Positions 46,479 to 64,000 of a stretch of DNA of 64,000 bases are shown here, piece after piece (positions within the stretch are counted from its first letter, which is position 1; each line of letters opens with the position of its first letter). The stretch is taken from assembly GCF_014200015.1 (NCBI RefSeq), contig NZ_JACHOT010000001.1, positions 1,550,001-1,614,000 on the forward strand, written 5' to 3'. The DNA is from Aminobacter niigataensis (GTDB lineage Bacteria; Pseudomonadota; Alphaproteobacteria; Rhizobiales; Rhizobiaceae). Below the pieces are notes generated by a model that had not been told where the DNA came from, searched no databases, and saw nothing but the letters and a program-made list of their open reading frames with translations. A program made the translations under genes and the position numbers.

Positions 46479-46552
46479 TGGGGAATAGGTTAACGGTAGA
46501 CCCACGGACTCTGACTCCGTTAGTCCTGGTTCGAATCCAGGTTCCCCAGCCA
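46479..46552 (+). tRNA. tRNA-Gln (anticodon CUG)
   Basis: The acceptor stem TGGGGAA pairs with TTCCCCA, discriminator G, and CCA is encoded (46550-46552). The anticodon stem is ACGGA/TCCGT, loop CTCTGAC giving CUG, and the T arm is CCTGG-TTCGAAT-CCAGG. A U1-A72 end is typical of tRNA-Gln. Core genes end before it and accessory genes start after it, so its 3' end is the likely island attachment site. No second copy of its 3' half was found up to 64000. Confidence 0.95.
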
Positions 46553-46859
46553 ATAGTATTTTTTCTATATTTTTCAATTACTTGCTCAACCGAGCCCTAC
46601 GGTAACCGGAACAGTTTTCCGCATCACTTTTCCGGATCACCGCCGACCTCTCGGAAAGGGACCCGGAGTGCTGCCACGCGGGCAGCCCCATATTTCATCG
46701 ATAATGCTGTGACTGGAGAGGGCGTGCTTCCTTTCCAGCAAATAGAGGCGGCGCAGGCGATGGAATAGGACTGTTCAATGGCAGCAGCCTCAAGATACAT
46801 AGCTGATAAGGGCGAGGGATGCGCGTGTCCGCGCGTCCCGGAGTCATTCGGGGCAGTAT
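46553..46859. other. Island junction, no clear gene
   Basis: This 307-bp stretch follows the tRNA and precedes the nuclease gene. It is AT-rich at first (TTTTTTCTATATTTTTCAAT) and includes a RIME-like repeat fragment. A degraded frame at about 46706-46768 ends in PFQQIEAAQAME, faintly like the end of a zinc-type alcohol dehydrogenase, but is too short to call. Confidence 0.45.
46606..46640 (-). repeat. RIME-like repeat fragment, inverted
   Basis: TTTTCCGCATCACTTTTCCG with flanks is the inverse of the dispersed Rhizobiales palindrome also found at 17717. It lies at the left end of the island. Confidence 0.5.
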
Positions 46860-48247: not shown

Positions 48248-48628
48248 CTATGCGGAAGCCTGAGGCTTGGCCAATGCCCGCACAAGACGCCTGGCCGTCG
48301 CATTCGGCTCAGAGACATGGCCCTCAGCTGCTGACCGAATTTCATGGAGCCACTTCTGCTCCTCATTCGTCATGGACGCGCCGAACATGCGTTCGAACAG
48401 GCAAATCGCCTCCTCATCGTAGAACTGGCGCGCGGCCAAGCGGAAGAGCTGCCGTGCATCAACACCGAGAACCAAGGCAACCTCCTCCACCCGATCAAGG
48501 GGAAGCTTGACGTCTCCGCGGAGGATCATCTGGAAGAGAGAACCTGCCAAGAAACTTTCCGGAGGAACCGGCACTTCCGACATCCGACCGCTAAGGAAAG
48601 AAACGAGGCTAGAGGCACGGCTGGTCAT
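48248..48628 (-). CDS. Small HTH (XRE-like) protein
   Basis: This 126-aa protein has a helix-turn-helix like Cro/CI: SLFQMILRGDVKLPLDRVEE, then VALVLGVDARQLFRLAARQF. The N-terminal half supplies the first helices. AGGAG lies 7 nt before ATG 48628, and a TATAAA-type box is upstream. It is related to the protein encoded at 48905 (KLxL...VAxxLxxDxRQx alignment). It could be an antitoxin or island regulator; there is no toxin beside it that I can identify. Confidence 0.7.
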   Translation of the reverse strand: MTSRASSLVSFLSGRMSEVPVPPESFLAGSLFQMILRGDVKLPLDRVEEVALVLGVDARQLFRLAARQFYDEEAICLFERMFGASMTNEEQKWLHEIRSAAEGHVSEPNATARRLVRALAKPQASA

Positions 48629-48904
48629 TGATCACTCCTGCGCTTGTGTAGATGCATCATTTATAGCGCGCGAGAGTCGGGGCAGCTTAACTCCCATCGA
48701 CCTGCCTCGAGGGTGTCGTGGCGCTGACAGCCCGTACCGATAGCCAACCTAAGGAAAAGCCCGCCCAATCACCCGCCATGATTGACATCGACACCTAAGC
48801 ATCTGACCTTGTTATGGAAGTGGCTGGTGGCACGCAAAAAGGGCAACTCTGCGCGAAAAGGTGCCGGTCGGTTGCGCCCGGCTTGATCAGCGACATAGCG
48901 CTCA

Positions 48905-49162
48905 TCAAGGTTCCGAGGCTGGCTTCCCTCTCTTCTGCGACCTCATATGCCTTTGAAACAAAGACATTATCTGACTGTCATGTTCCTGCGCGAGGCACAT
49001 CATGAGGATCTGCCGCTCATCGAGTTGCAGGGCTTTTGCAACGCGCGGAACCTGCCAAAGATTTAGCTTTGAGAAGCCTGCCAAGTATGAACCGAATGAC
49101 GACTTTGTAGTGAAGCCCGCAAGTTTCATGAACTCAGGCCTCTTGAGGCCTAGTTCAGCCAT
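48905..49162 (-). CDS. Small HTH (XRE-like) protein, amber-truncated N-terminus
   Basis: This 85-aa protein is related to the 48248 product: FGSYLAGFSKLNLWQVPRVA and KALQLDERQILMMCLAQ correspond to its HTH. An in-frame ATG at 49213, overlapping the stop of the upstream gene, reads MSNPEARIALA and then a TAG (49180-49178). It continues in frame to ATG 49162. So the original start was probably lost to a nonsense codon, leaving a shorter protein or a pseudogene. Coexpressed with the DUF2293-like gene upstream. Confidence 0.6.
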   Translation of the reverse strand: MAELGLKRPEFMKLAGFTTKSSFGSYLAGFSKLNLWQVPRVAKALQLDERQILMMCLAQEHDSQIMSLFQRHMRSQKRGKPASEP

Positions 49163-49205
49163 CCGATTGGCAATTAGCTATGCAAGGGCAATTCGAGCTT
49201 CCGGG

Positions 49206-49529
49206 TTAGACATCGCCTACCTCCTGCGCTTGCTTTGTCTTGACCGCTCCGGACCTTCTCCTCCAGACTCTCAGCATCACATCGATACGCGGTTGAACAC
49301 GAGCGCGAGCCTCCAGTCGGTCCATACCCTGCAAGAGCAACGTGTCGTAGTCTGTCATCTCGTGACGGAGAAAATTCTGCATTGTTATGCCGACGGCCTT
49401 GCCCAGCCGTGCATCCCGCCACTCTTTCTGAGCAACTTCGAGGGCAAAATAAGCAACCGCGAAATCAGGGCAGCCGGGATGATTTTGACGAATATGCCGT
49501 TCTATGGCATCGACAGGGAAAGTGCGCAC
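49206..49529 (-). CDS. DUF2293-like hypothetical protein
   Basis: This 107-aa protein ends HEMTDYDTLLLQGMDRLEAR, then VQPRIDVMLRVWRRR, which looks like the conserved end of DUF2293 (HxxTDYDxLLxxGxxRxxAR...VxxVLxxW). That assignment is from memory. GTG 49529 follows GAGGAG at 6 nt. It is the first gene of a two-gene unit with the small HTH gene. A TATAAG box and an AAGTAA/TTACTT inverted repeat lie upstream. Confidence 0.6.
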   Translation of the reverse strand: MRTFPVDAIERHIRQNHPGCPDFAVAYFALEVAQKEWRDARLGKAVGITMQNFLRHEMTDYDTLLLQGMDRLEARARVQPRIDVMLRVWRRRSGAVKTKQAQEVGDV

Positions 49530-50488
49530 ACCGTGCTCCTCATCGGCGAAGGAGCGCCCTTATAGTGCATCCAAAAATTTGAAGTAAAATAAGGTATTGC
49601 TTACTTTCGACAGTTATTCACAGCTCGTTCGAACGGGTATTCGCCACATCCAACTGCGCCCGGTTCGATCTCTGCGGAACTTTCGCCGCATGCTGATAAT
49701 GCCCGCTTCCTGGGGAGTGGCCTTGAGTAGTTGCGAGCCTTGTTTGACTCGAGAAGCGAAGCCCTAGGGAAACTGGCGCTGCTGATAGGGATGCCTTTTG
49801 CACCCGAGGACTTCCGGCGAATGTATCCTCCTCAGCCAGTAGCATGCTTCGGAACTTCGCCTTCACCTTGAGAAGGGCGCGAGCCACCTTTTCCGAAAGC
49901 TACCTTTACATAATACCTTGACAGCCCCTGCCCTATGTAAAGGTCGGTCGCTGTTTCGGGCCAAAATGACAATTCTGCGCAAGGCAAATGTAAAGGTTGG
50001 CTACCCAGAAGCCCTGCATTTCCGGGCGGAACCTTGACAAAACTTTCCGTTTTCTTGACAAAAATGCCCGTTTTCAGAGTTTGCTGGAAAACGTAAAGGT
50101 TCGCATAGCCCTCTCGCAGAATGCATCACAAGAAAGGTCATGGATCGCGCCTCACCGACATGCTCCTGCATCAATAGTTGCGTGCAGACCTTGATCCGAC
50201 ACGCTCAACAATTGACCTAGACGAGCGGAAGCGCTGACGGATCAACTCGAAAACATATCCAGGCTGGGGCACGTCGAAGCGATAAATACTCATTCAAGGG
50301 CAGCTCTATTAGAAGCGCCCGCATGCCGAAGGGCTCTCAAATCGGCCAGAACTGAACGTTTGGCGGTGTGTAGCTGCGGAATGGAAGGAGGCTAAAAACA
50401 GAGAACCGCTGATGTCCGTGCAGTGACCTGGCCGTGAAGCCTCCTTTGGTAACAGGGCTGACCACCTGCATGGCCAGCCCTGTCTACA
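49530..50488. other. Non-coding block with iteron-like repeats
   Basis: This stretch of nearly 1 kb shows no credible ORF. It is AT-richer than its surroundings and holds four ATGTAAAGGT-like copies plus three CTTGACA copies at 49902-50100. An operator-like AAGTAA...TTACTT repeat lies at 49582-49606, near the DUF2293 gene promoter. It could be a replication origin or a regulatory hub for the neighbouring genes. Confidence 0.55.
49902..50100. repeat. Iteron-like direct and inverted repeats (ATGTAAAGGT)
   Basis: ATGTAAAGGT is found at 49935-49944 and 49988-49997. ACGTAAAGGT (one mismatch) is at 50091-50100, and the inverse ACCTTTACAT at 49902-49911. CTTGACA occurs at about 49917, 50033 and 50054. 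Spacing is irregular, unlike a tight iteron array, but repeat number in a small area is striking. Confidence 0.55.
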
Positions 50489-50920
50489 TCAAATCGAAAT
50501 TGCCGCAAGCTCGCGCCGGACACGGGTAACTTCATCGGCAACATCGTAGCTGTCGATCATCATTTCCAGCTCGTAGCGGATGCGATCGACATTCGCGATT
50601 GCGGCGTTGACGTTTCCGCGGAAGATCTTCTGCTTGTCCGTCAACTCGTCCCAATCATCTTCATCAGCGACGATGTTGGTCAGACTATCCCGGATGATGA
50701 CATCACCGCCCGGATAGGTGTCAGGATAATGCCCTGCGGCCTTGCGCAAAAGCGCCGCCTCTACGGGATCGTTGTCGTCCGCTTCCCTTGCAAGGAGCTC
50801 ATAGAGCCGACGGATCGACATCACGAAGCCCGAGGCACCGAACTGCTTCGCGAGCTCATCCGGATACGGAAGGCTAAAGTTGGCCATATTCATCGACGGG
50901 ACGGCGGGCGTGCTGCTCAT
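50489..50920 (-). CDS. Hypothetical acidic protein (143 aa)
   Basis: I do not recognise this 143-aa, strongly acidic, helical protein; segments include YPDELAKQFGASGFVMSIRR, LADEDDWDELTDKQK-like acidic stretches and a C-terminal coiled helix ending VTRVRRELAAISI. A strong AAGGAG lies 9 nt before ATG 50920. A short basic ORF precedes it by 22 bp. It is divergent from the replication-like gene and could be a control protein for it, which is speculative. Confidence 0.65.
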   Translation of the reverse strand: MSSTPAVPSMNMANFSLPYPDELAKQFGASGFVMSIRRLYELLAREADDNDPVEAALLRKAAGHYPDTYPGGDVIIRDSLTNIVADEDDWDELTDKQKIFRGNVNAAIANVDRIRYELEMMIDSYDVADEVTRVRRELAAISI

Positions 50921-50942
50921 GATAAAATCTCCTTCTTGAGCT

Positions 50943-51050
50943 TTAGGGATCGCCGGGCAATCGGCGTCCTAGTTTGCTCAAGGGAGATTGATGGCTCTTG
51001 CTCCGCTTCACCTTCTTATTTGCTGCTGCCAAGCATTGACCGCCCATCAT
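50943..51050 (-). CDS. Small basic ORF, 35 aa, upstream of the 143-aa gene
   Basis: From ATG 51050 this ORF encodes 35 residues with basic segments ANKKVKRSKSHQ and SKLGRRLPGD, stopping 22 bp before the next start. It has GGGAG 6 nt upstream and a TATAAT box beyond. It may be a leader peptide or a small DNA-binding peptide. The length is too short for homology. Confidence 0.4.
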   Translation of the reverse strand: MMGGQCLAAANKKVKRSKSHQSPLSKLGRRLPGDP

Positions 51051-51086
51051 GATCATCTCCCGCTTTATGCTTTGCTTCTGCGGAGA

Positions 51087-51092
51087 ATTATA
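51087..51092 (-). promoter_or_regulatory. Putative -10 box
   Basis: A consensus TATAAT on the minus strand lies about 37 bp upstream of the 35-aa ORF start. No clear -35 hexamer is present at 17 bp, so this is tentative. Confidence 0.35.
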
Positions 51093-51228
51093 GCGTTCTG
51101 CCGTAGCAACCGCATCGACGTTGCGGCTTATCTGCAACAGACAGTGTTGTCTGAAGCATCCTCCGGGATGCGGACGCCGGTTCGACGGCCCAACGATCCT
51201 TTTTCGTCCAACCCGAATCTGCTTAGGC

Positions 51229-52518
51229 ATGCTGGCCCTGGATGGATTGCGCTCGGCTCGTGTCACCGGTCTATCTGAAATGCCATGGCACACGGAGGTT
51301 GACCTGCAACACGACGTCATCTTGTATCGGAATAGAGAACTCACAGATCCGGTCACACTGACATATGCCGAGAAGACGCTCAGGCGCTCACAGGCGCGCT
51401 TCGTCAACCGCGCTGCACTGACCCCGCAGATTGATCTAGGAAGCTACCAGTGCAACGCTGTAATCGATTGGATAGATATCTATTTCGAACTCTCGCGACG
51501 CACTCAGTATTGGAAACTGAACGACCGCATCGAGAAGCTGACTGGCCGGAAGGAATTCCCAGAAGCCTTGGACCTCGGGGAAGGCAAAACGGCAACGTGC
51601 TACAAGCTGCGCGTCCAGGAGCCAGATCTTGGAGCCGTCCGGAAGGTGCTGGACGACCTCGAGAGCGTATATGGCCTTGCAAAGCCCGTGGGCATTCGCG
51701 GGATCGAAATCAGTCTCGACTTCTACCCGAAATCGCCGAGCGAGGATGCTCGAGCCAGGATGCATGGAGTTCTGGTCCGGCACTTCTTTCCTTCGACACG
51801 CATCTTGAAGAGCAGCAGGATGTGGCCGCGGTTCATGCCGGGGAGCGTCGAGAAAACTGACTATACGGTGAGCCGCAACGATAGCGATAGCAGCCTCGAC
51901 ATCGGAGGCCGCATGACACCCGGAATGGATCGCCAGGCACTTTACGGCTCAACCTATTATGTCGGTGAACGCGATGACCCGAGAGCCTTCTGGCGCATTC
52001 AGAACAAGGTGCTGGATAAGCAGAACAAGGCTGCAGGCACCTGGGATGAGCTGCCGGATGACAAGAAGCGGGCCCGGATTGAGGTGACGCTCGGACGTGA
52101 GGGCTGCCGAGAGATAGGGCTGGAACAATTCAGCGATCTTGAAACACTGAAGATCACGCGCCTCCAGAAAGGCTTCTTCCAATTCATGAAGCCGACTTTC
52201 GCGATCGTCCGGCCTGGAAGTGCGCGACCTGGATCAGCGGCAGTCAAACGAAAGGTCGAGGAATACCGGAAGGAAAGGTTCCTGAACGCAGGGGTACTCG
52301 GACTCCAGATCCGGGAAGATGCGAAAGAGGAGCTGCGTGCGTTGGAAATGCCAACCATCAGAAGATGGCACAGAATGAGCGGAACCAAGATGCCGCTCAA
52401 ACTGAGAGCGGGCGCCGGCGCGTACGGAACGATGATCGCGTACGAAGAGCTGACGAGGATGGTGGAGCGAGCGCTGGCTGGGCTTCAGAGGGAAGTAAGA
52501 GGAGAGATGAGTGAGTAG
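51229..52518 (+). CDS. Replication-initiator-like protein (Rep_trans-type)
   Basis: This 429-aa protein shares pattern features with replication initiation factors of the Rep_trans type: GIRGIEISLDF in mid-protein, then YGSTYYVGERDDPRAFWRIQ (the family has a YxGxRxS...R-x-YxK stretch), and ARIEVTLGREGCREIG. A C-terminal basic region follows. The likeness is weak and from memory, not search. ATG 51229 is preferred over a TTG 36 codons earlier; ATG 51280 is possible. Adjacent iteron-like DNA supports a replication role. Confidence 0.5.
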   Translation: MLALDGLRSARVTGLSEMPWHTEVDLQHDVILYRNRELTDPVTLTYAEKTLRRSQARFVNRAALTPQIDLGSYQCNAVIDWIDIYFELSRRTQYWKLNDRIEKLTGRKEFPEALDLGEGKTATCYKLRVQEPDLGAVRKVLDDLESVYGLAKPVGIRGIEISLDFYPKSPSEDARARMHGVLVRHFFPSTRILKSSRMWPRFMPGSVEKTDYTVSRNDSDSSLDIGGRMTPGMDRQALYGSTYYVGERDDPRAFWRIQNKVLDKQNKAAGTWDELPDDKKRARIEVTLGREGCREIGLEQFSDLETLKITRLQKGFFQFMKPTFAIVRPGSARPGSAAVKRKVEEYRKERFLNAGVLGLQIREDAKEELRALEMPTIRRWHRMSGTKMPLKLRAGAGAYGTMIAYEELTRMVERALAGLQREVRGEMSE

Positions 52519-52713
52519 GTCTGGTTAAACTTGGATAGGCTTTGGTATATCAAGTTATTAGGTCCGCCCGCGCTCCGCTCGTCAATGAGGCTCCTAACTC
52601 GGCGCTGCAACTGTTCGCCAGCGTTTAGCGACTCGACATTTCCTCGGGAAAAACTTGCTTCGTCCCGTTCGAAATTGGAGAGAAACGGCAGCCGATCTCC
52701 CAGCCGCGATCGA

Positions 52714-53637
52714 TTATTCATCACTGAAGAAGTCCTCATCTAGCCGCTTGAACTCAACGGCCCGGTAGCCTCGTACCCCGACGTCGTGCTCGATCATAAG
52801 ATCAGCTAGTTCCCGGCCATCTATCAGAATAATCCGCTGTGCGAGATGCTTGACGTAGTCGCGAGCTGGTTGGCTGAAGGTCGAGGTGGTGACGAAGACG
52901 CCTTTCGTGGCGCCGAGGCCGACGAGGCTGCCGACGAAACCGTTGACGTCCGGACGGCCAACCGGATTGCCTGGAACGTAGCGCTTTGCTTGAACGTAAA
53001 TACGGTCGAGGCCGAGACGGTCCTCATTGACGATTCCGTCGACACCCCCATCACCGGAGCGGCCGAGCTGAGCGGCAGCATCTTTGTGGCTACCGCCGTA
53101 GCCCATAGCGACCAGGAGGTCGACGATCAATTGCTCGAAGAAGGTGGGACTGTTCGAAAGAATGCGTTCCAGAAGCTCGTCGCGCAGGGCTGCCGTTAGA
53201 GCGGCATGGGCAGCGTCGATCTGCTCCTCCGGTGTGGTGGTCCCAGGAGTGGCCTCGCTCGGTTTCGCGGATGCGACCTCGTCCTCAGTAAGAACTCCCT
53301 CATTGCGATAGAACTCGCGAAACACCGGCTCACGCATCAGCAGGCTGACGTCGATCCGCTCCGGTGCCGTGGCCAGAAGTGCCCTGCCCTTGTCCGTCGC
53401 GAAGAAGCGGCCACGCGCGGGCGAGGCGATGAGTCCAGCTTTGCTCATGTAGAACTTTGCCCAGTGGATGCGATTGTGCAGCAGGCGCTGGCGCCCGCTC
53501 GGCAAAAGCTGATCCCGCTCCTCCGGCTTCAAACCCAGTTCATCGGCAATGCGCTCGGCAACATCGGCCACTCGCGTTTCACCCTTGGCGGCGAGACGCA
53601 GGACCGGCAGCATGAGTGTCTGGTAATCGGGGATCAT
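52714..53637 (-). CDS. mrr: Mrr-type restriction endonuclease
   Basis: This 307-aa protein has an Mrr winged-helix N-terminus (DYQTLMLPVLRLAAKGETRV, ADELGLKPEERDQLLPSG) and a C-terminal PD-(D/E)XK domain with GRSGDGGVDGIVN (Asp200) and YVQAKRY (Gln216-x-Lys218). Mrr enzymes cut DNA carrying modified bases. It is 50 bp downstream of res, same strand, and probably in the operon. In this context it would be odd because the operon also encodes a DNA methyltransferase. Confidence 0.85.
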   Translation of the reverse strand: MIPDYQTLMLPVLRLAAKGETRVADVAERIADELGLKPEERDQLLPSGRQRLLHNRIHWAKFYMSKAGLIASPARGRFFATDKGRALLATAPERIDVSLLMREPVFREFYRNEGVLTEDEVASAKPSEATPGTTTPEEQIDAAHAALTAALRDELLERILSNSPTFFEQLIVDLLVAMGYGGSHKDAAAQLGRSGDGGVDGIVNEDRLGLDRIYVQAKRYVPGNPVGRPDVNGFVGSLVGLGATKGVFVTTSTFSQPARDYVKHLAQRIILIDGRELADLMIEHDVGVRGYRAVEFKRLDEDFFSDE

Positions 53638-53687
53638 CGCTCATACTGCCAGCGCTAAGGATTGGCGGAGACGGCGAGCCGTAGGGT

Positions 53688-56600
53688 TCATGTGCTCCTC
53701 ACCACATCCATAAGCCTCGAATAATCCGTGACAACGTCATACTTAACCTGATCTGATGTCACATTGCTGCCGATCTCTGTGAAGAACCGTCGCGCGCACT
53801 CGATCTTTGTAGTCTCGAATTCCCGCATCTTCAGCGACGACAGCGTGCCCTTGGTTTCAGCGACGAAGTAAATGTGGCTGACCGAGCCTTCCTTGAACGA
53901 AATCGCCCAGTCTGGATTATAGTCCCCAACCGGGGTCGGGATTGAGAAGCCCCGCGGCAGTTTGGCGTACACGACGATCTCGCTGCTCGTATCCAACTGC
54001 TCGACGAAGCGCCGCTCAGTGTCGGAGTCGAGAAGGGCGTAGTCGTAGACGTGCTTCTTCAGCTTTTCGCTAGCCCTGGAGAAATCCTGAACGGTCTGGC
54101 TCGCGGTGAAGATATCACTCTCGTATCGCTCTGAAACAGCATCATAGGTCAGGCGCTCGATCACCATCGAGGCCTTCTGCTCGATGATCAGGCGTGAGGC
54201 CTCGCTGATGAAGTGCTCGGGGTTCTGTCTGAACTGAGCAAACACACTCGGCTGGATCTTCGACAGGATTTCAGCGATCGTTTGCCGCGTAAGCTGCGTG
54301 GCATCGGCAAGCTTAGCAAGCAGATCGTACTTCACCAGCGATGTGACGGTTTCCGCCTGATAGGTTGCCTGCTCCTTTTCGCGGAAGCTATTGCCATCCC
54401 CGATCGTGTCATAGGTCAGGCCTTCCTGTTGGATCCCACTCGTGACGGTATATTGCAGCGGCGTCACACGAAGATGGCTGTCGAGCGCGCTGACACTTTT
54501 GCGGATCAGTTCACCCGGATCGAACTCAACCCGATAGACGGCCTTCTGGTTGATCCTGCCCCAGAGCTCCTGGAATTCCCTGCGGTGGAAGTTGTCGTTC
54601 AGGGGATTGCTCTTCGAGCGGCGGTCATCCTGCAGCTTCGGCAACTGAAGTTCATTGAACACGCCATCGACGAGCTCTAGTATCTGGTCGGTGTAGGGCT
54701 TCAGATCATCGGGCAGATCCTCAATGGTTCCGCTTTCACGAGCGCGCAGGTATTTTTCGGTGATGTTTTTCTGCCGATCGACATATCCGTTCTGAACCAG
54801 GAAGAACTCGATACCTGCCGCCATGTCTGGCGACACCTCGACAATTCCGCCCTCGGTGTGCAGCACCTTACCCTTGAAATACTCCTCATTCGCCTGGCGC
54901 GGACGTGCCGTGAGCGCCTCGACCATCTCCTTCTGAAGCGCGTCGACGAAGTTCCTGTAGCTCTCGCTGGCGACGACCGTCAGCACGTTGATGTCGTGCA
55001 CCGTCGCAGGACTGTCCATCCGGTCGCCATTCTGGTCGACGCTTAAGCGCAATCCGCGGCCGACTTCCTGTCGACGGGAGATCGTGTTGTCGCTGTGCTT
55101 CAGCATGCACATGACGAAGACGTTCGGGTTGTCCCACCCTTCACGCAGGGCCGAGTGGGAGAAGATGAACCGTGTGGGCTCGCCGAACGAGAGCAGCCGT
55201 TCCTTGTCTTTCAGGATGAGGTCGTAGGCGTCCGGATCCTCGGACTGCCCTTTGTTGTCGCCGGTCCTGGAGACGTCGGGGTCCTTCAGGCGATTGGTCT
55301 TTTTGTCGATCGAGAAATAGCCATTGTGGGTTGTTGCAGCGTCGATGCCGGCCAGATACTTCCGGTAAGCCTCGTTGTCGATCGCCAGTTGTGACAGGTA
55401 TTCCTCCTTCAGGAGCGCATACTCCTCCTCGAAGACGCGGGCATACTCGCCCTTCTCGTCCGCCTGGGCGTAATCGCGATACTTCGCCACCTCATCGATG
55501 AAGAAGAGCGATAGCACCTTGATGCCACGGGAGAAGAGCTGCTTCTCCTTGTCGAAATGTGCCTTGATGGTTTCGCGAATCTGGATGCGGCGAATATCGC
55601 GCTCCGACACGTCTCCATTGGCTTCGCCAGCCTTCAGGATAAAGCCATTCGTGAACTCGACTGTTTCGTTGACAGCATCGATCTGGCTGATCGTGAAACC
55701 GTGATACTGGTCCAGCTCGCCGGACAGCACGAACAGATCGTCGCGAAATTCCAGGCGCCTAAGCTGCCGCTTGATCTCCCCGGAGGCCAGTTTCACCTCA
55801 AGCTCGATGCGAGCGACCGGCGCCCTTTTCGAGATGTCGATGCCTTCGAGATAGAGGTAAGCATTGTTGCCTGCCAGCCCACGGGTGTGGATGCCGCGAA
55901 CGGCGATCTTCTTCACCAGCTTCTGGTTATAGGCATCGAGTGCGTCGAGCCGGTGGATGCGGCTGTGCTGCGTCTTGTGGGTCGCCGAGTAGCGCAGGAT
56001 CATCAGCGGCTTGAACTTTGGCAGCGCCTCCATCGTCGCTGCACCTTCCATCTTCTGCGGCTCGTCGAGGATGATGATCGGTCTGTTCGAGGCGATGACG
56101 TCGATCGGCCTTCGAGACTGGAAATCATCCAGCTCTTCGTAGATGCGGCGGTTATCAGCGCCGCGCGCATTGAACGCCTGGATGTTGATGATCATGACGT
56201 TGATGCTGGCGTCGGACGAAAAGCTCTCCAGCTCATGCAGACGCTTGGAACTGTAGATGAAGAACCGGGCCTTCTTGCCATAGCTTTCTGTGAAATGATC
56301 GGCCGTGATCTCCAGGGACTTTGCAACGCCTTCGCGGATGGCGATGGACGGCACCATGATGATGAATTTCGACCAGCCATACCGCTTGTTCATTTCGAAG
56401 ATGGTCTTGATGTAGCAGTAGGTCTTGCCAGTCCCCGTCTCCATTTCGACGTCGAGATGGATGCGGGTCGCGGCGAGAGCGTCCTTCTTGTAAGCCGCAG
56501 CCACGGCAACGCGCTCACCACGGGTGTTAAAGGTGGTGAAATCGATTAGGGACTGCGACAGGGGCAGGTTCTGGCGACGCTGGACTGTCTGGATGTTCTC

Positions 56601-56789
56601 CAGGATCTGCGGCTCACTGAGAGCAGAGTCAGAATTCTTGAACCCCTCCTCGAACGCGCTTGTCTGTGCCTTGCGACCTGGATCGATCCGGTAGGACAGG
56701 CTATCGTTCTTCGGCTGGCCTGCGAAGCAGTCGACAACCGCATCGACGGCGTTGGTTTGATACGGCTGGACCTTGAACTTGAGCTTCAT
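53688..56789 (-). CDS. res: Type III restriction enzyme, Res subunit
   Basis: This 1033-aa protein has a DEAD/DEAH-type helicase core: Walker [10 protein letters not shown] (about 116-124), ILDEPQKM (DEPQ box at about 242-245, typical of Res) and [18 protein letters not shown] with EVGRGLR (motif VI). The C-terminal nuclease carries NPDWAI (Asp960) and VAETKGT (Glu978-x-Lys980). With Mod it cuts unmodified DNA in an ATP-dependent way. The start is ATG 56789; ribosome site weak. A 127-bp gap separates it from mod. Confidence 0.92.
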
Positions 56790-56916
56790 CGGACGTCGGC
56801 TTTCTTAAATTTCTTTCGTAGCTCTCTTGGGGCTTTCGTAGAATGCTCATGCTTCGTGCTGCCTTCAGCGCCATCCCATTCACAGCGGAGTGAGCACCAA
56901 GTCTGCAAGAGCGGCC

Positions 56917-58782
56917 TCAGATTGCTTTGACGTCGGTGGTTGGGGAAAGCTGGCGGAATATCTGCTCAACATTAATCTTCACAGCATCCGAGACAAAACC
57001 GCTGTCGCGGAATACGACCCGCAGCGGCTCGCGCTTTGCCAGATCCTTGACTAGATCCTCGGAAACACCCTTATCGAAGCAGGCAACCAAGGCATTTTCA
57101 TCCACGAAGAGCACGGTCTTTCCCAGCACCGTCTCGCGGCGGATCGGCAGCGTCAGGTCCACACCCCAGTCAACTAGCACCTGGAACAGTAGGTCCTCGG
57201 CGGCGCGGCCTTCTTTGACGTTGTCGACCATGTCGAGCAAGTTGCCCTGTTTGAGTTCGTCGGCGCGGTAGTAGACGTCCTTCATGTTCGAAGTGTCGAG
57301 TTTTAACACCCGGAAGCCCGTGACTTCGTCGCCCTCAGCCTTGAATTCCTCAACAACGTTGCTTAGGCGAAGCCGTCCCATATCGAAGATAGTTTCCATC
57401 TTGGTTTCGGGGACAGGCAGGGGCTCAGCAATCTGAACACCAATAAAGCGCCGATTGCCGCCGTCCATACGGTTTTGTAGCATGACGGCATGGGCCGTCG
57501 GCGCGCTGCCGGAGAAGAAATCCAACACGATAGCGCCCTCTCCGGGCTTAGTGGCCAATTGAACGATGCGCTGAAGCAACTCCACAGGCTTTACCGAGTT
57601 CAAGACATTTTCGGTATGCTCGAAGGGAACGTATTTAAGAAGTGCTTTCTTGGCATCTTGGGTGTGACCTACGTCATTGTAGAACCAGAGGGTTTGAGGT
57701 GTTCGCCCTGACGAGACCTCAGAAAGAAATTTTTTCACTGCTGGGGAGTTGCTTCCATCTTTTCCCCACCAAATTCGATTGTCTGCATCGAGCTCCAAGA
57801 ATTTCTCTTTGCTGATGCGCCAGTAGGTTCCAGTTGGCGGTCCGGCAATTACCCTGCCGGATGGTGTTGTAAGAGAATAGACGCCCGCATCGTAAGGGTT
57901 GCGCGCGGTCATGTTCTCGGCCTTCCACGGCCCGCGAGGGTCGTTGTCCAAGTTCTTGTAGCGCGCCTCCATCTCGTCCGTGCGAGGTAGAGGGTTGGGG
58001 AACCAAACCTCCTTATTCTTCGCGAACACCAGGATGAAATCATGATCTTCTGAGAACCACTTCGCGGAGTTCTTCGGTGCATAGACCTTCTGCCAGATGA
58101 TTGTAGCGACAAAATTCGAGTCGCCAAAAATCTCGCTTCCCATCTTCCTCAAGCTATCGACCTCGTTGTCGTCGATCGAGACAAAGACGACGCCGTCGTC
58201 TGCGAGAAGGTTCTTGGCCAAGCGCAACCTAGGATACAGCATGGAAAGCCAATCCGAATGGAAACGACCGTTTGCCTCGGTGTTGGCCACGAGCCGCCTG
58301 CCGCCCTCATCCGCCTGCCCAGACAGATTCAGGTAATCCCCTGTTCCCTGTGAGTAATCATCGTCGTAGATGAAATCTCTGCCGGTGTTGTAGGGTGGGT
58401 CGATGTAGATCAATTTCACTCGACCAAGAAGCGACTCTTGAATGACCTTTAGAACCTCAAGGTTGTCGCCTTCGATCAGAAGGTTGTTCGACGCATCGAA
58501 GTCAATGCTCTGGTCTCGGACGGGCCGCAATGTCTTGGCAATCGGCGAATTAGCGGCCAACGCGGCTTCCCGCTTCCCCGGCCAATCCAGCCTGTATCGC
58601 TCCTGCGGTCCCTCCACGATGCTGTCGCTCAATTCCTGCCGAAGCTGATCGAAATCCACGGCCAGACGCAGCTTGCCGGTCACCTCGTCGCGTGCCTCGG
58701 TCACGCAGCCGGGAAACAGGTCGCGGATCTTGGCGATGTTCTCCTGGCTCAGGTCAGGGCTGTGCATCTTCAGCTTTTCCAT
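56917..58782 (-). CDS. mod: Type III DNA methyltransferase, Mod subunit
   Basis: This 621-aa beta-class N6-adenine methyltransferase has DPPYNTG (128-134) before DFFSGSAPTAHA (421-432, the SAM motif FxGxG). A central target-recognition region and C-terminal domain complete a Mod protein. With Res it recognises and modifies a short asymmetric site. A GGGAAGAA site within the end of the upstream small gene supports ATG 58782, 3 bp after that gene, so translation is probably coupled. Confidence 0.92.
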   Translation of the reverse strand: MEKLKMHSPDLSQENIAKIRDLFPGCVTEARDEVTGKLRLAVDFDQLRQELSDSIVEGPQERYRLDWPGKREAALAANSPIAKTLRPVRDQSIDFDASNNLLIEGDNLEVLKVIQESLLGRVKLIYIDPPYNTGRDFIYDDDYSQGTGDYLNLSGQADEGGRRLVANTEANGRFHSDWLSMLYPRLRLAKNLLADDGVVFVSIDDNEVDSLRKMGSEIFGDSNFVATIIWQKVYAPKNSAKWFSEDHDFILVFAKNKEVWFPNPLPRTDEMEARYKNLDNDPRGPWKAENMTARNPYDAGVYSLTTPSGRVIAGPPTGTYWRISKEKFLELDADNRIWWGKDGSNSPAVKKFLSEVSSGRTPQTLWFYNDVGHTQDAKKALLKYVPFEHTENVLNSVKPVELLQRIVQLATKPGEGAIVLDFFSGSAPTAHAVMLQNRMDGGNRRFIGVQIAEPLPVPETKMETIFDMGRLRLSNVVEEFKAEGDEVTGFRVLKLDTSNMKDVYYRADELKQGNLLDMVDNVKEGRAAEDLLFQVLVDWGVDLTLPIRRETVLGKTVLFVDENALVACFDKGVSEDLVKDLAKREPLRVVFRDSGFVSDAVKINVEQIFRQLSPTTDVKAI

Positions 58783-58785
58783 AAA

Positions 58786-59064
58786 TCAATTCTTCCCAAG
58801 TTCTACGACGTCGTACTTCCAGCCTAAATAGCTATAGAGAAAGTCACCCGATCCTTCACGGTCGGTCAGCTTCGCGTGTATCTTAAATACCGTTCCCACG
58901 GGATAATTGCGGCTCTTCGAACATTCAACATGCATCGTGGTTTGAAAACCCTGTCCGGGGCGAGGGCGGATGTGGACGTCTCCATGCAGACCAGACGAGC
59001 TTTGGGGCCTATAACTCTCGACCAGCGCCATCTGATAAGGTTCATTCGACTTCCCCGTCACCAC
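58786..59064 (-). CDS. Small uncharacterised protein in the type III-like operon (92 aa)
   Basis: This 92-aa protein is of unknown family. Visible: NEPYQMALVESYRPQSSSG, HIRPRPGQGFQTTMHVECSK and FKIHAKLTDREGSGDFLYSY, likely a small beta-sheet fold. Its start lies within the end of the DUF4391 gene (23-bp overlap) and its stop 3 bp before mod. So it is firmly part of the operon. I recall similar short genes between DUF4391 and Mod in other loci, but without a search. Confidence 0.75.
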   Translation of the reverse strand: MVTGKSNEPYQMALVESYRPQSSSGLHGDVHIRPRPGQGFQTTMHVECSKSRNYPVGTVFKIHAKLTDREGSGDFLYSYLGWKYDVVELGKN

Positions 59065-59794
59065 CCCCCATCAACCTTCTCAACTCTTCCCTTGCAGCGC
59101 GCAGCTCAGCATTAATCCCCACGCGCTTGTTGAATTGCTTCTCGCGGAACAGCCGAACCTTGATCCGTTCGACCTCGCGGGTCGCTGTCTTGATTGCCTC
59201 CGCCTGGGCGATCCTTTCCTCCAGTGACAGCGGATGCACCACTGGCGCCGCTGCGAACGAAGCCTGCGGGGCTTCCCCAAAGCCGGCTATGGCACCGGGC
59301 ACCAGCCGGACGGTCTGCTCCTCGACCAGGGGGCCGAGAAGCTGTTCGTACAGCGCGCCCATCGTTAGCGCCACGGGGAGCGCTACACGCGGCGCATCAT
59401 CTTTCAGCCATTCGCTATCGAAATAATCGCCCAACACCCATTTCGTGCTATCGGCTTCGCTTGGCCGTTTATAGGCCGCGGCGAGCTTGACCTTGCCGTC
59501 ATGCGCCAGTTCGAACAGCAATGGAAACGGGATAGCACGATCGATAGCGCGCAGCGCGTCAATGCTAAGGGATTTTCCCCGTTGGGTTATCCGGAACACC
59601 TGGATTTCGGTCACCGCCTTCGTCGCGGGCAGATTGATCGTCTCCGGCGCCAGCTTGTGAGACCAGACGATCTGATCGACCTCCCGCACGAACAGGTCCT
59701 TGAGCGCGGCATTGGCGCCCGCATGCTCATAGATCTTGTTCTTGGGGATAACCCGCCCGAAGGCGCTGGCGCGCGGCCAGTCGTAGAGGGTCAC
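59042..59794 (-). CDS. DUF4391 domain protein
   Basis: This 250-aa protein matches DUF4391: YDWPRASAFGRVIPKNKIYE at the start, VREVDQIVWSHKLAPETINL, VTEIQVFRI and LDALRAIDRAIPFPLLFEL in the core. A helical C-terminus carries an EREVERIKVRLF-like coiled segment. DUF4391 genes are known beside SNF2-type helicases and type III-like R-M genes; the function is unknown. It overlaps the helicase stop by 4 bp and the 92-aa gene by 23 bp. Confidence 0.88.
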   Translation of the reverse strand: MTLYDWPRASAFGRVIPKNKIYEHAGANAALKDLFVREVDQIVWSHKLAPETINLPATKAVTEIQVFRITQRGKSLSIDALRAIDRAIPFPLLFELAHDGKVKLAAAYKRPSEADSTKWVLGDYFDSEWLKDDAPRVALPVALTMGALYEQLLGPLVEEQTVRLVPGAIAGFGEAPQASFAAAPVVHPLSLEERIAQAEAIKTATREVERIKVRLFREKQFNKRVGINAELRAAREELRRLMGGGDGEVE

Positions 59795-62700
59795 GAGGCA
59801 CCTCCGTCAACGCGCGGGCCTCCTTCGACGCGCAGGAAGGCGATCAGCTCGAAATCATCCAGCCCCTTGATCGTGTGCGTCAGCGCGGTCGTGCGGCCGC
59901 CGCTGAACAGGCTGTCGATGTCCTTTTCTTCCTTGACCTCGATCATCGAACGGATCGCCTGGCTGAGCAGATCGGAATAGCGCCCCATCTGGCGGCCGTC
60001 TTCGGTCCGCTCGTTGAACAGGCGGCAGACATCCGGGATCGGCTCGGCGCGCCCCTTGCAACTGCTGCGGATCAGATCAAGCAGCCGCTTCACCTCGGTA
60101 TGGTCTGCGACGATCTCGCCTTCGTCATCGATATAGACTAGGTAGAAGGGATGCAGGCGGTTCTGCTGATTGATGTTGACGCTATGGTGCACGTTCTTCA
60201 GCGCGAAGATTACGCCGGGCCGCAGTCCAAGCTCGTCGGCCGCCGGCACGACAGCGTGCATGCCAAACGGCGCGGTTTCCAGGTCACCATGTTCCTTGAC
60301 GTAGTTGAGCAGGTCCATACGAAAATCGTTAAGGCCAAGGTCGGTGATCGAGATGCCGGCCTTCACGTCTTCCAGCTCGATCACCTCTTCCTGCATCCGC
60401 TTGAGCTGTTCCTTGCGATAGGCAATGTCGCTGGACTTGGCGGTCAGCACATTGTCGTCGCCGGTCGCCGTGACGTCGGCGATCACCATGCGGTTTTCAA
60501 CACGCTCCTTGAGATTGATATATTCGTCCAGCGTGATGTCCGGCCAGTAGTTGACGAGCTGGATCTGGTCATTGGGCGAACCGATACGGTCGATACGCCC
60601 GAAACGCTGAATGATCCTCACTGGGTTCCAGTGGATGTCGTAGTTGACCAGAAAGTCGCAGTCCTGCAGGTTCTGGCCTTCTGAGATGCAATCCGTACCG
60701 ATCAGGATATCCAGCTCGGCCGTCTCGTGGGCCAGAACGACAGCCTTTTCCTTCGAGCGTGGCGAAAACAGCGTCAGCACGCTCTGAAAGTCGTAAGCCT
60801 TTTTGAGCGTGGTTTTCGGAGCACTCGAGCCTGTGACCTGGCCCACATGCAGCCCAAGACCATGGGCAAATGGCACTAGGTTCTCGTAGAGGTAATTGGC
60901 AGTGTCGGCAAAGGCCGTGAACACGATGACCTTGCGATTACCGGGATTGAGCGGTTCCGCGACCTTCTGCTCAAGAAGCGAGATCAGGTGCTGAAGTTTG
61001 GCGTCGTCTCCCGGCGCCACCTTGTCCATCGACGCGATCAGGGCTTCGATCAGGGCATGGTCCGCTGCGAGATCGTGCTTCCAGGACGGCAGGTCCATGT
61101 CGCCAAGGCTGATCTGCACCTTCTTGCCAACGGTAAACTCATCGAGCCCGGAGAGGTCATCATCCTCCGGGTCGAAATCGCCCATATCCTCCAGGTGGTC
61201 ACTGATGCTGCCACCACGCCCGGTTGTCTCATACTCGGCAATGGCATCGAGCGCCCGCGCTATGTTGCCGTCCAAAGCTCGCAAGGTGAGGCGGAAGGCT
61301 TCCACGGAGCTTTCGAGGCGCTTGAGGAGGTTCGTCGTCATCAGCGCCTGGAGGCTGCGCTCGCGGTCGGCCTGCCGGAGTTTGCCACGGCCGCCTTCGA
61401 CCTGGGTGTCGTAGATCTCCTCGTACTTCCGGAGCCGGCTTGGCAGGATGTAGCTGATCGGCGCATAGACCGCGAGCTTCAACACCGATAACTGGCCGAA
61501 GATCTCATTCAGACCCATCACATCCGGTCGCTGTGTGATCGGGCAATGGAACGACAGTGGCTTGCGGCGCTGGGGAAACTTGCCGATGTCCCTCGTGTCG
61601 TAGAAGGTCTCGATATGCTTGCGCGACCGGGCAATAGTCACGGCATCCAGTAGTTCGAAGAAGTCGAAGTCCAGCGTCTTTAGGATTGTGGCAGCGGTTC
61701 GCTCGTCTGGCGGCAGCGCCGACCATTCGTTAAATGCCTTCTGGGCGCGCCGAAAGATCTCCTCAATGCTGGTCTGCGATTTCAGGCTCTTGCTGAGTGT
61801 GTCCGACTGCCCTTCATAGGCGAGAGCGAGCTGATTACGTAGATCGTTGAAGCGGTTGTTCACCGGCGTCGCCGAGAGCATCAGCACCTTGGTCTTCACG
61901 CCCGCGCGGATGACCTTGTTCATCAGCTTCTGGTAACGGGTCTCGCGATCCTTGAAGACGTCGTTGTTCCGGAAATTGTGGGATTCATCGATCACCACGA
62001 GATCGTAATTGCCCCAGTTAACCCGGTTCAGCGGAATTCCGAACGATTCACCCGACGTGCGCGACAAATCGGTATGGCAGAGCACGTCATAATTGAAGCG
62101 ATCCTTGGCGAAGATGTTGGTGGTGAGATTGGTGTTGTAGTTCCGCCAGTTGTCGGCCAGCTTCTTCGGGCAAAGCACCAGCACCGACTTGTTGCGTAGT
62201 TCGTAATATTTGACGACGGCAAGGGCTGTGAACGTCTTTCCAAGACCTACCGAGTCCGCCAGGATGCAACCGTTATAGGTCTCCAACTTGTTGATGATCC
62301 CCGTCGCCGCGTCCCGCTGGTAGTTGAACAGCTTGTTCCAGACGATGCTCTCCTGATAGCCGGTCAGGTCGTTCGGCAGGACGTCCTCGCTGATGTCCTC
62401 GAGGAACTCGCGGAAGATATTGTAGAGCATCAGAAAATAGACGCGTTCCGGAGCATTTTCCTGGTAGACAGCCTCGATGTGGTCGCGGATGTCGTCCGTG
62501 ACGTCCTTCAGCTTGTCGGCGTCATTCCAGATTTGATTGAAAAGCTGAAGATAGACCCCGGCATGGACCGGCTCATCCATCCGGGTCACAAAGTTTGAGA
62601 CAGCGTTGCCTTTCTGATAGCCAAGGTCGACGGCCGTGAATCCGCTGATCGGCATATAGGCAACGGCCGCAGCGCCGTTGTCCACATGGGCAAACGGCTG

Positions 62701-63081
62701 CATAGCTGCCTGCGTCGCGTTAGACTTAAACCGCGCCTTCTTCCGGATCCATTCCGCGCACTCCCGCGCCACAGCACGCTGGGTCAGTTTGTTGCGGAGT
62801 TTGATCTCGAACTCGGTGCCATATAGGCTGCTCTCCAGGCTGGCCTTCGGGATGAAGAACTCACGTTTCTCCTTCCGCAGTCGATCCGTTGCATCCGTCG
62901 CGACAAAAGTGGGCGACGTAAAAATGAACTGCAGACTATCTATCTTCGAAAGTTCAGACTTCAGCGCCTCGAAAGCGTAAATCGAGAAGCAGGACGCGGC
63001 AATTTTGACGCGCGAGCCGCGAGTAAGCGTTTCCTTCAGGTCATCACCAAGCAGTCGCGAAGTGTTGTCGAGAATCTTCAT
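59791..63081 (-). CDS. SNF2-type helicase with N-terminal PLD-like domain
   Basis: This 1096-aa protein heads the operon. Residues about 1-160 look like a phospholipase D-like fold (VKIAASCFSIYAFEAL, LQFIFTSPTF), yet a canonical HxKxxxxD is not visible. The SF2 core has Walker A ADSVGLGKT (275-283), DESH (365-368), SAT (403-405) and QRFGRIDRIG (825-834). It would move along or remodel DNA, in concert with the downstream Mod/Res set. A C-terminal extension of about 250 residues is unassigned. Promoter candidates upstream are weak. Confidence 0.88.
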   Translation of the reverse strand: MKILDNTSRLLGDDLKETLTRGSRVKIAASCFSIYAFEALKSELSKIDSLQFIFTSPTFVATDATDRLRKEKREFFIPKASLESSLYGTEFEIKLRNKLTQRAVARECAEWIRKKARFKSNATQAAMQPFAHVDNGAAAVAYMPISGFTAVDLGYQKGNAVSNFVTRMDEPVHAGVYLQLFNQIWNDADKLKDVTDDIRDHIEAVYQENAPERVYFLMLYNIFREFLEDISEDVLPNDLTGYQESIVWNKLFNYQRDAATGIINKLETYNGCILADSVGLGKTFTALAVVKYYELRNKSVLVLCPKKLADNWRNYNTNLTTNIFAKDRFNYDVLCHTDLSRTSGESFGIPLNRVNWGNYDLVVIDESHNFRNNDVFKDRETRYQKLMNKVIRAGVKTKVLMLSATPVNNRFNDLRNQLALAYEGQSDTLSKSLKSQTSIEEIFRRAQKAFNEWSALPPDERTAATILKTLDFDFFELLDAVTIARSRKHIETFYDTRDIGKFPQRRKPLSFHCPITQRPDVMGLNEIFGQLSVLKLAVYAPISYILPSRLRKYEEIYDTQVEGGRGKLRQADRERSLQALMTTNLLKRLESSVEAFRLTLRALDGNIARALDAIAEYETTGRGGSISDHLEDMGDFDPEDDDLSGLDEFTVGKKVQISLGDMDLPSWKHDLAADHALIEALIASMDKVAPGDDAKLQHLISLLEQKVAEPLNPGNRKVIVFTAFADTANYLYENLVPFAHGLGLHVGQVTGSSAPKTTLKKAYDFQSVLTLFSPRSKEKAVVLAHETAELDILIGTDCISEGQNLQDCDFLVNYDIHWNPVRIIQRFGRIDRIGSPNDQIQLVNYWPDITLDEYINLKERVENRMVIADVTATGDDNVLTAKSSDIAYRKEQLKRMQEEVIELEDVKAGISITDLGLNDFRMDLLNYVKEHGDLETAPFGMHAVVPAADELGLRPGVIFALKNVHHSVNINQQNRLHPFYLVYIDDEGEIVADHTEVKRLLDLIRSSCKGRAEPIPDVCRLFNERTEDGRQMGRYSDLLSQAIRSMIEVKEEKDIDSLFSGGRTTALTHTIKGLDDFELIAFLRVEGGPRVDGGAS

Positions 63082-63259
63082 AAGGACCCGTATGGACGCT
63101 GTTAAAGCTCAAAAGTAATCAGGTATCATTGCCTAACTGCATCGACGATTTGTGTCTACATTGCCAGCTGATTAAGGTCTCCCTAAAAGCACTCCCGACC
63201 AACTCCAGGCCCTAAAGAAGATCGTTAACGGTGATAAGCGATAAAGAAAAAGGCACACG
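63082..63259. other. Upstream region of the defence operon
   Basis: This gap of 178 bp between the integrase stop and the helicase start is relatively AT-rich. On the minus strand a TGATAC box about 50-55 bp upstream of the helicase ATG could be part of its promoter, but no good -35 is paired. No sign of a terminator for the integrase was seen. Confidence 0.35.
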
Positions 63260-64000
63260 TCAACCTGCTCCGATTTCGGTCCTTAAATGATCCAGCGTTA
63301 ATCCGGGATAGGCAATCGAGTTGATGAGTTCGACCCTTTGATCAAGCATGCCCTGCGGCAACGTACCGTAACGCTGGGTCATCGTGCCTGCGGTATGTCC
63401 TAGAATGAAGCCAAACTGCTCGTCCAAGTAGCCCGCGCGTCGCAGGGCGTCTGCTGCCCCGTGCCGAAAACTGTATAGGGAAAGACCGCGGCCTTCCTTT
63501 AACCCGATCTTCGTCAGATAACGGGGAAAATCGCGACTGAAATCAGCGATCATCTGCCCGCGCTCGTTGCGCCCGGCACTTGGGAAAAGCCGCATTTCTC
63601 CACCTTGCTTCATTTCAGCCTGGTAACGCAGGAAACCAAGCTGCACGAGCTCGGGGTGGATAGGAACCACTCGCATAGATCCATCAGTCTTGACGCTTTT
63701 GTCCCCATCCCCTTCGGTAGTGATGTGCATGATCCAGTGCCCATGTTCCTGACGTACATCATCAATGGCGAGCTGAGCGACCTCCCCCGGCCGAGCCCCG
63801 GAGAAGAGCATAACAAGCGGCACCCAGTAACGATGGTCGCGGATTTGCATGTTTCCGGACTTGCTCCAAAAGCGAGGGGCCTCATGCGATTGACACCCAG
63901 TAAAGAACGGGGATCTAAAAAGCGCGTTCATCTCTTCGACGGTGAACGGCTTCGTTGTCTTATCCTTCGATTTCTTCAAAAACATGTCTGACGCTGGATT
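63260..64000 (-). CDS. Tyrosine recombinase/integrase, N-terminus beyond the window
   Basis: The frame is open through the right edge, giving the C-terminal 246 residues of a phage-type integrase. Catalytic positions visible: Arg in FSGARPGEVAQL, SLYSFRHGAAD (Arg of HxxR, with Tyr at the usual first His), LGHTAGTMTQRYG (His and the nucleophilic Tyr). The true start lies outside, so the Met at 63985 is internal. It is on the same strand as the defence operon but upstream. It may mobilise the island. Confidence 0.88.
   Translation of the reverse strand, partial: NPASDMFLKKSKDKTTKPFTVEEMNALFRSPFFTGCQSHEAPRFWSKSGNMQIRDHRYWVPLVMLFSGARPGEVAQLAIDDVRQEHGHWIMHITTEGDGDKSVKTDGSMRVVPIHPELVQLGFLRYQAEMKQGGEMRLFPSAGRNERGQMIADFSRDFPRYLTKIGLKEGRGLSLYSFRHGAADALRRAGYLDEQFGFILGHTAGTMTQRYGTLPQGMLDQRVELINSIAYPGLTLDHLRTEIGAG

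Follow-up and report, generated by a model that had tools for sequence, protein, structure and literature searches.

A candidate type III restriction–modification system with an SNF2 motor and a DUF4391 protein as added core components in a genomic island of Aminobacter niigataensis

Introduction

In type III restriction–modification (R-M) systems, ATP-dependent cleavage requires two inversely oriented unmethylated sites. In EcoP15I, Res is docked on Mod, moves on the DNA, and cuts if the site is unmethylated. In the accessible text of its description, this enzyme is made of Mod and Res alone (PMC4490356). Here we analyse a stretch of 64,000 nucleotides from Aminobacter niigataensis (contig NZ_JACHOT010000001.1, positions 1,550,001 to 1,614,000 of the forward strand; hereafter, the window), which carries an operon where Mod and Res genes stand together with genes for an SNF2 helicase that has lost the catalytic residues of a PLD nuclease and for a protein of the DUF4391 family. 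These four genes are kept together across unrelated genomes, and we consider it very likely that they constitute one functional system.

Results

Organization of the operon

A preliminary description of the window, made from the sequence alone, had proposed a six-gene operon, and all six open reading frames (ORFs) were found at their expected places on the minus strand. They encode a PLD-fold/SNF2 translocase of 1096 amino acids (aa) (59791..63081); a DUF4391 protein (PF14335) of 250 aa (59042..59794), whose gene shares its first 4 bp with the end of the helicase gene; a 92-aa accessory protein of the PHROG 38296 family (58786..59064), rare in these loci; Mod, a predicted type III amino-methyltransferase of 621 aa (56917..58782); Res, a predicted type III helicase-endonuclease of 1033 aa (53688..56789); and an accessory Mrr-type methyl-directed (type IV) endonuclease of 307 aa (52714..53637), located 50 bp after Res. 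From the helicase to Mrr the spacings are −4, −23, +3, +127, and +50 bp, in agreement with the two overlaps (4 and 23 bp) and the 3-bp gap reported before. The Pfam search identified DUF4391 (E = 3.9e-51), N6_N4_Mtase in Mod, ResIII and RE_endonuc in Res, and Mrr_N/Mrr_cat in the last protein. With PADLOC, the helicase matched the model PDLC01075, "HKD+Snf2", along its full length (E = 3e-127), and MTase_III, REase_III, and mREase_IV were also assigned; neither the PADLOC nor the NCBIfam models matched the DUF4391 protein or the 92-aa protein. A scan for promoters and terminators gave 3 and 7 sites, respectively, vs. 4.2 and 10.6 expected.

Conservation of the four-gene set

A scan of 84,980 genomes for DUF4391 yielded 274 relatives. 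The 80 most like the DUF4391 protein of the window were retained; they stem from one peptide pattern and lean to one clade and to Alphaproteobacteria. The pooled loci scored by profiles amounted to 110 (104 different, 84 complete). Gene order was evaluated in 79 loci with at least 3.7 kb upstream and 6.5 kb downstream of DUF4391, after removing duplicates (equal DUF4391 score and length). The exact order PLD/SNF2–DUF4391–Mod–Res was observed in 76 of them. Of the three exceptions, L092 lacks Res, L118 lacks the helicase, and L116 has all four genes and an additional Mod fragment upstream. The preliminary description had reasoned that, if the helicase–DUF4391 and mod–res genes were mostly found apart in other genomes, they would be two neighbours instead of one system; these 76 loci show the opposite arrangement. 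Its proposal of a distinct multi-gene machine is thus sustained for the helicase and DUF4391, not for the 92-aa protein and Mrr, which are not core components.

The same organization was found at other scales of sampling. Within the family of the host, DUF4391 is present in 8 of 199 genomes (that of the window included), and the other seven all carry helicase–DUF4391–Mod–Res on one strand and in the same order, with different intervening genes; L015 has a Mod split in two, a short helicase, and a short Res, and in L016 the presence of the DUF4391 ORF was confirmed. In a phylum sample of 398 evenly drawn genomes (thresholds of E = 1e-40 for the helicase family and E = 1e-60 for the Res family, PDLC03647), DUF4391 was detected in 23, the helicase in 24, and both in 20. 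In the three genomes with only DUF4391 (G216, G220, and G449) the gene lies at a contig end, where G216 retains the helicase tail, and the four with only the helicase (G266, G218, G542, and G512) are those whose helicase has an intact PLD motif, described below. The Res family was present in 43 genomes of this sample, which include 22 of the 23 with DUF4391.

The junctions between the genes were measured in a set of 81 loci that retains duplicates. The helicase–DUF4391 junction has a median of −4 bp and is at most 20 bp in 78 of 81 loci, and insertions longer than 200 bp occur there in only 2 of 81, as compared with 12 at DUF4391–Mod and 23 at Mod–Res. Because start and stop overlap in this way, the helicase and DUF4391 appear to be translationally coupled, and they probably form a complex. 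Gene order and junction data both speak against the pair and Mod–Res being chance neighbours.

The ordered set of four genes also occurs on mobile elements: on an E. coli plasmid typed IncFIB (L174), on two Acinetobacter plasmids (L176 and L244; Mod of L176 is split by an insertion sequence), in the Erysipelothrix phage phi1605 (L175), and in the human gut phage contigs L241 and L242. The Listeria phage contig L243 carries about half a helicase only. Among 50,697 phage records, 14 matched the helicase, three of them across at least 80% of its length, and DUF4391 was found in 41 of 72,556 plasmid records. DNA resembling the L174 set was present in 10 of 5426 complete E. coli genomes, and nine of these ten records are plasmids. 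A scan of viral contigs with the Erysipelothrix DUF4391 gave one pattern match and no relative. On the 112-kb plasmid of L174 (L174:1-21128) the set lies 2 kb after repA, and the annotated genes of this plasmid (DNA polymerase III alpha, 5′-3′ exonuclease) suggest a phage-plasmid. In phi1605 (L175:1-21246) it lies between site-specific recombinase genes, near macrolide-efflux genes, according to the annotation of the depositors.

Mod and Res, and the exchange of the recognition module

Mod and Res have the features expected of type III enzymes. Mod matches PF01555 and contains DPPYNT, a motif found in 62 of 63 Mods of clade a, and a loose F-x-G-S pattern was found in 50 of 63; the variable recognition block (about residues 221–420) lies between both motifs, which is the arrangement of a beta-class amino-methyltransferase with its recognition domain between the motifs. 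Res combines an SF2 motor with a C-terminal PD-(D/E)XK nuclease: Walker A and DEPQ were present in 63/63 sequences and PD...E(T/S)KG in 61/63, and Res of the window has all three, the last one as PD...ETKG. The best PDB matches were EcoP15I Res for Res (4zcf_C, E = 6.6e-71) and 6k0w and 4zcf_A for Mod.

In phase-variable type III systems, Mod recognition domains are swapped beside a constant Res. The divergence of the four proteins was compared in the window and 62 further loci of its clade; incomplete loci and the seven loci of the other clade were left out. The pairwise distances of the C-terminal part of Mod (residues 471–621) correlated with those of Res (r = 0.77) and of the helicase (r = 0.71), and none of 2000 permutations was as high in either case. 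For the N-terminal part (residues 1–230) the correlation with Res was 0.12 (141/2000 permutations as high), and for the recognition part (about residues 231–410 in the window) it was 0.13 (28/2000). The gene for Mod is flanked by those for DUF4391 and Res, and the N-terminal half of the protein can therefore be used to control for the effect of linkage by itself. The correlation between the helicase and Res was 0.83, and between DUF4391 and Res it was 0.80 (62 loci of the clade).

Individual comparisons showed the same trend. In 127 of 148 locus pairs with Res at least 90% identical, the recognition parts were less than 40% identical; conversely, recognition parts were at least 70% identical in 53 pairs, and in 13 of these Res fell below 80% identity. 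The window and L090 share 92% identity in Res, 96% in the helicase, and 21% in the recognition part; for L091 these values are 92%, 95%, and 98%, respectively. The simplest reading would be that the helicase, DUF4391, Res, and the C-terminal domain of Mod make up a chassis that receives exchangeable recognition modules. Since the recognition half is swapped while the helicase–DUF4391 pair, Res, and the Mod C-terminal domain diverge together, the action of the pair should be independent of the recognition sequence. We favour, with some reserve, the idea that the pair acts on Res and the C-terminal domain of Mod rather than separately, presumably by physical contact. In EcoP15I, as stated in the accessible text, the Mod C-terminal domain is in extensive contact with Res (PMC4490356).

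The SNF2 motor and its lost nuclease

The designation "SNF2/PLD-like helicase" given before agrees with the full-length "HKD+Snf2" match and needs to be qualified regarding the nuclease. In an alignment of 97 helicases from DUF4391 loci, which contains some duplicate copies and, for L163 (first copy), a stray second helicase, neither the histidine nor the lysine of the PLD catalytic columns (HxK) was present in any sequence, and a glutamine follows the lost histidine position in 95. Pfam PLDc was not matched by the helicases of the window, L174, L043, and L175. An active HKD nuclease in helicases of the window type was therefore rejected. The SNF2 motor motifs that were searched for are intact in the window helicase and retained in 63/63 sequences. 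In its AlphaFold model (mean predicted local distance difference test, pLDDT, of 72), the top PDB matches were RapA and ISW1, SNF2 enzymes that remodel protein–nucleic acid complexes.

The four relatives from loci lacking DUF4391 (L170–L173) all have an N-terminal HxK...GSSN PLD motif and match Pfam PLDc_2 above the cut-off; for L171, which has a gap at the HxK columns of the alignment, the motif was located by pattern. A large Eco57I/type IIG-like methylase gene adjoins the PLD-intact helicase in three of the four. These three loci (L170:8954-16237, L171:3914-10804, and L173:4644-11406), with their "HKD+Snf2" helicase and Eco57I/type IIG-ISP-like methylase genes, look like another helicase-nuclease and methylase system. 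The motor of the window may thus derive from a helicase-nuclease that served a methylase, its nuclease having been lost once it was joined to a Res that brought its own.

A second type of SNF2 helicase has joined Mod–Res elsewhere: in L222 (1632-9961) and L225 (1144-8998) a DrmD-type helicase (PADLOC E = 3e-212 and 8e-198) directly precedes Mod–Res, with no DUF4391. In L225 a WYL-family gene adjoins these genes.

The DUF4391 protein

The predicted model of the DUF4391 protein (pLDDT of 88.7) consists of an alpha/beta core of about 140 residues followed by long C-terminal helices. A fold search against solved structures returned 488 matches at E values up to 10, none of them at 0.001 or below, and a profile search against PDB sequences gave three matches (best E = 0.21). 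Seven residues are invariant in 23 diverse members: P7, K18, W44, E63, P91, K109, and Y149 (window numbering). In the literature, as far as it was accessible, DUF4391 was met only in a study of the host range of an epibiont. The family provides a handle for finding these loci; no PADLOC or NCBIfam model matches it.

Accessory genes

The 92-aa ORF is a real gene, as indicated by homologues in two other loci (81% and 66% identical), a PHROG family match (E = 1.2e-23), and relatives in phages and plasmids. It had been described as conserved-looking and placed between DUF4391 and Mod in an order whose conservation across unrelated genomes would support one system. The four core genes do recur in that order; the 92-aa gene is annotated in 1 of the best 80 loci and was detected by tblastn in 2, with copies solely in the genome of the window, L092, and L116, and it also occurs alone in phages and plasmids. 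It was thus rejected as a core component, and it belongs to an exchangeable accessory class. As a marker of methylase loci it was also discarded, given its relatives in L181, L183, and L184. Its relatives follow a DUF1156–DUF499 pair in L180 and an annotated DNA methylase in L182, both on plasmids, and a GIY-YIG nuclease gene in L179. In L181 the gene lies apart from any methylase; in the Klebsiella phage L183, it is among apparent head genes, as judged by eye; and in L184, among acyl-CoA dehydrogenase genes.

An Mrr relative was found in 7 of the best 80 loci, directly after Res in five of them, and on these numbers Mrr was not considered a core component. A Schlafen/AlbA_2 protein was present in 18 of the 80, and other insertions contained RhuM (also the PADLOC candidate PDC-S05), a zeta-toxin-like P-loop protein, GmrSD, HNH, Fic, DUF2130, and a weakly SMC-like protein.

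Location in an integrated island

An 18.7-kb island, over half of which is taken up by the operon, is inserted in a tRNA-Gln gene (46479-46552). The G+C content of the island is 56%, vs. 63% on both flanks. An 18-bp att repeat (46536..46553) lies at the 3′ end of the tRNA gene, and a second exact copy was found at 65182 (window numbering), 1.2 kb past the window end and just beyond a tyrosine integrase of 608 aa (63260..64000, minus strand, continuing beyond the window to about 65086). In the same-genus genome G586 the site is empty: the left flank adjoins the right one (seen over its first 330 bases), both share the same 18 bp where the tRNA-Gln is intact, and this 7-kb stretch lacks the integrase. 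The att pair and the empty site in G586 indicate that the operon lies in an integrated island, which extends from 46536 to 64000 in the window and on to 65199. Other genes of the island encode a 402-aa protein at its tRNA end (46860-48068, plus strand), with a weak PDDEXK_4 (PD-(D/E)XK) match below the cut-off, a DUF2293 protein (49206-49529, minus strand), and a 465-aa ORF (51121-52518, plus strand) with no Pfam match.

Discussion

Proposed mode of action

We propose, with about as much belief as doubt, that the operon would encode a mobile defence system based on type III R-M, with two extra core subunits that act as a nuclease-dead helper translocase. Mod would recognise and methylate a short site, marking self, and Res would restrict unmarked DNA, a step carried over from EcoP15I by homology. 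Coupled in translation, the SNF2 protein and DUF4391 would together form a nuclease-dead translocase on double-stranded DNA that docks on Res and the Mod C-terminal side and aids restriction whatever the recognition sequence. It might, for example, clear protein roadblocks; alternatively, it might allow Res to be activated without the usual meeting of two converging enzymes. The 92-aa protein, Mrr, Schlafen/AlbA, RhuM, zeta-like, GmrSD, HNH, and Fic proteins would be exchangeable extras within or beside the operon. The function of the four-gene locus in defence is deduced from its sequence, and the positive role assigned to the pair is tentative, with doubt slightly ahead of belief.

Several observations weigh against this proposal. 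Res was found without DUF4391 in 21 of the 43 genomes of the phylum sample that carry it, 6 of these 21 by weak matches (E = 1e-71 to 1e-97). When Res-family loci outside the DUF4391 group were examined (14 of 17 chosen stretches annotated), five Mod–Res loci with more than 6 kb visible upstream showed no helicase–DUF4391 pair (L216, where Mod is short; L219; L221; L223, where Res is short; and L224). On Res trees, the presence of DUF4391 changed at least six times with 39 sequences and at least four times with 36. Since pair-less loci exist and unlinked Res are spread over the tree, the pair appears to be dispensable for restriction itself. In addition, L050 carries DUF4391 with no Mod or Res within 9.6 kb downstream, the upstream sequence being insufficient; L118 is DUF4391–Mod–Res without the helicase; and L092 lacks Res. 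The co-divergence of linked genes must partly reflect plain co-inheritance, the confidence of the helicase model is middling, and among solved structures DUF4391 has no fold relative that hints at a role.

The first of these trees comprised 39 of 91 rows and was rebuilt with 36 rows, without L217, L218, and L220, where 601, 435, and 0 bases, respectively, are visible upstream of Mod; no pair was seen in these stretches of less than 1 kb, and L215 has Res alone. DUF4391-linked Res appear in both deep branches, interspersed with unlinked ones, and three long branches (L222, L224, and L225) are of unsure place. Mod–Res can exist without the pair, and the pair without Mod–Res is rarely seen; the Mod–Res-only loci suggest that Mod and Res alone would be sufficient for type III R-M. 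L050 (2-1373) may be what remains of a locus or may reflect another use of DUF4391; there the gene is followed by that of a 173-aa protein that starts like the zeta-toxin-like P-loop protein of L046.

Other explanations

Three other explanations were considered. The pair could be a separate sensor-effector that reads Mod methylation as a self mark, so that restriction by Res and killing by the pair would run in parallel. Stand-alone defences made of a helicase and a small partner are known, such as Hachiman HamAB in the accessible text of PMC12278908, and the PLD-intact relatives that adjoin an Eco57I/type IIG-like methylase in three of four loci indicate that this helicase family can provide the effector of a methylase; nevertheless, the loss of the PLD residues in 97/97 helicases leaves the pair with no recognised nuclease, and it is rarely found without Mod and Res. 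We regard this explanation as unlikely. The second possibility is that the pair acts as a brake, the SNF2 protein stripping Res–Mod from host DNA (restriction alleviation) and so permitting movement and changes of specificity without killing the host. The resemblance of the motor to RapA and ISW1, the frequent swapping of recognition parts in a mobile locus, and the ability of Mod–Res to do without the pair are all in line with it. Nonetheless, type III systems of the same Res family that lack the pair indicate that a brake is not required, and we give this idea a small chance.

Finally, the pair and Mod–Res could be two unlinked defence neighbours held together by their transfer as a cassette, as might be expected from a locus found on a mobile island here and on plasmids and phages elsewhere, and from the known clustering of defence genes. 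This is very hard to reconcile with a gene order and a helicase–DUF4391 overlap (median 4 bp) that are maintained in distant groups, with long insertions that fall at DUF4391–Mod and Mod–Res far more than at helicase–DUF4391, and with the rarity of the pair without Mod–Res; we consider it highly improbable.

A bolder version of the helper translocase proposal, which we hold as a rather doubtful conjecture, is that the DUF4391-linked SNF2 protein is an ancient third type III motor, a former PLD nuclease that became, with DUF4391, a fixed subunit of the chassis and alters how the enzyme is triggered. If so, the enzyme might cut, for instance, from a single site or past roadblocks, while recognition modules, toxins, and nucleases are exchanged on the chassis. 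Type III R-M systems are commonly regarded as having two subunits. The four-gene form is represented in each of the two deep branches of one Res family and spans a chromosomal island, plasmids, and phage genomes, with third and fourth subunits that are apparently new to study. A nuclease-dead SNF2 motor tied to Res would open type III triggering to simple genetic tests.

Comparison with known systems

The literature covered, mostly at the level of titles and abstracts and with most subscription journals and all supplements outside it, contained no description of the four-gene set. DISARM is defined by DrmA/DrmB (DUF1998-type), drmC, and a methylase. As in DISARM, an SNF2 helicase accompanies a methylase here, and the DrmD-type helicases of L222 and L225 stand before Mod–Res; however, the window helicase matches DrmD in parts only (156.7 bits vs. 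a cut-off of 610), Pfam detected no DUF1998 (DrmB-type) family among the six genes, and neither DrmA/DrmB nor drmC was found among them with PADLOC and Pfam. The operon was thus not assigned to DISARM, nor to BREX/BR, given that no PglZ or DUF499 ATPase was found among the six genes by Pfam. The preliminary description had also suggested a kinship with helicase-methylase-ATPase (Hma) loci, where a helicase likewise adjoins a methylase. This was not borne out: the Hma methylase (HmaB) is of the m5C type and HmaC is an ATPase, as stated in the accessible text of PMC8565338, whereas Mod is an N6/N4 amino-methyltransferase and none of the six genes encodes a separate ATPase.

SauUSI consists of a PLD domain and an SF2/SNF2 motor and acts in methylation-linked defence. 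The same combination was found in the accessible description of the HKD+Snf2 helicases of BR type 2 (BREX-related) systems (PMC12839542), which also have DUF499 and DUF3780, neither of them detected by the Pfam scan of the six genes. In both SauUSI and BR type 2, as far as the source describes them, the HKD nuclease is the effector, whereas it has been lost in helicases of the window type. The existing PADLOC model PDLC01075 (C3a139, "HKD+Snf2") reveals that the helicase family was noticed earlier by the authors of PADLOC; the window helicase matches this model across its full length, although the HKD after which it is named is lost in the DUF4391-linked branch. The closest likeness is to EcoP15I and EcoP1I, given the expected motifs of Mod and Res and the best PDB matches to EcoP15I, with the difference that loci of the window type add the PLD/SNF2 motor and DUF4391 as core genes. 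By homology, the operon would thus belong to type III R-M, enlarged by two core subunits.

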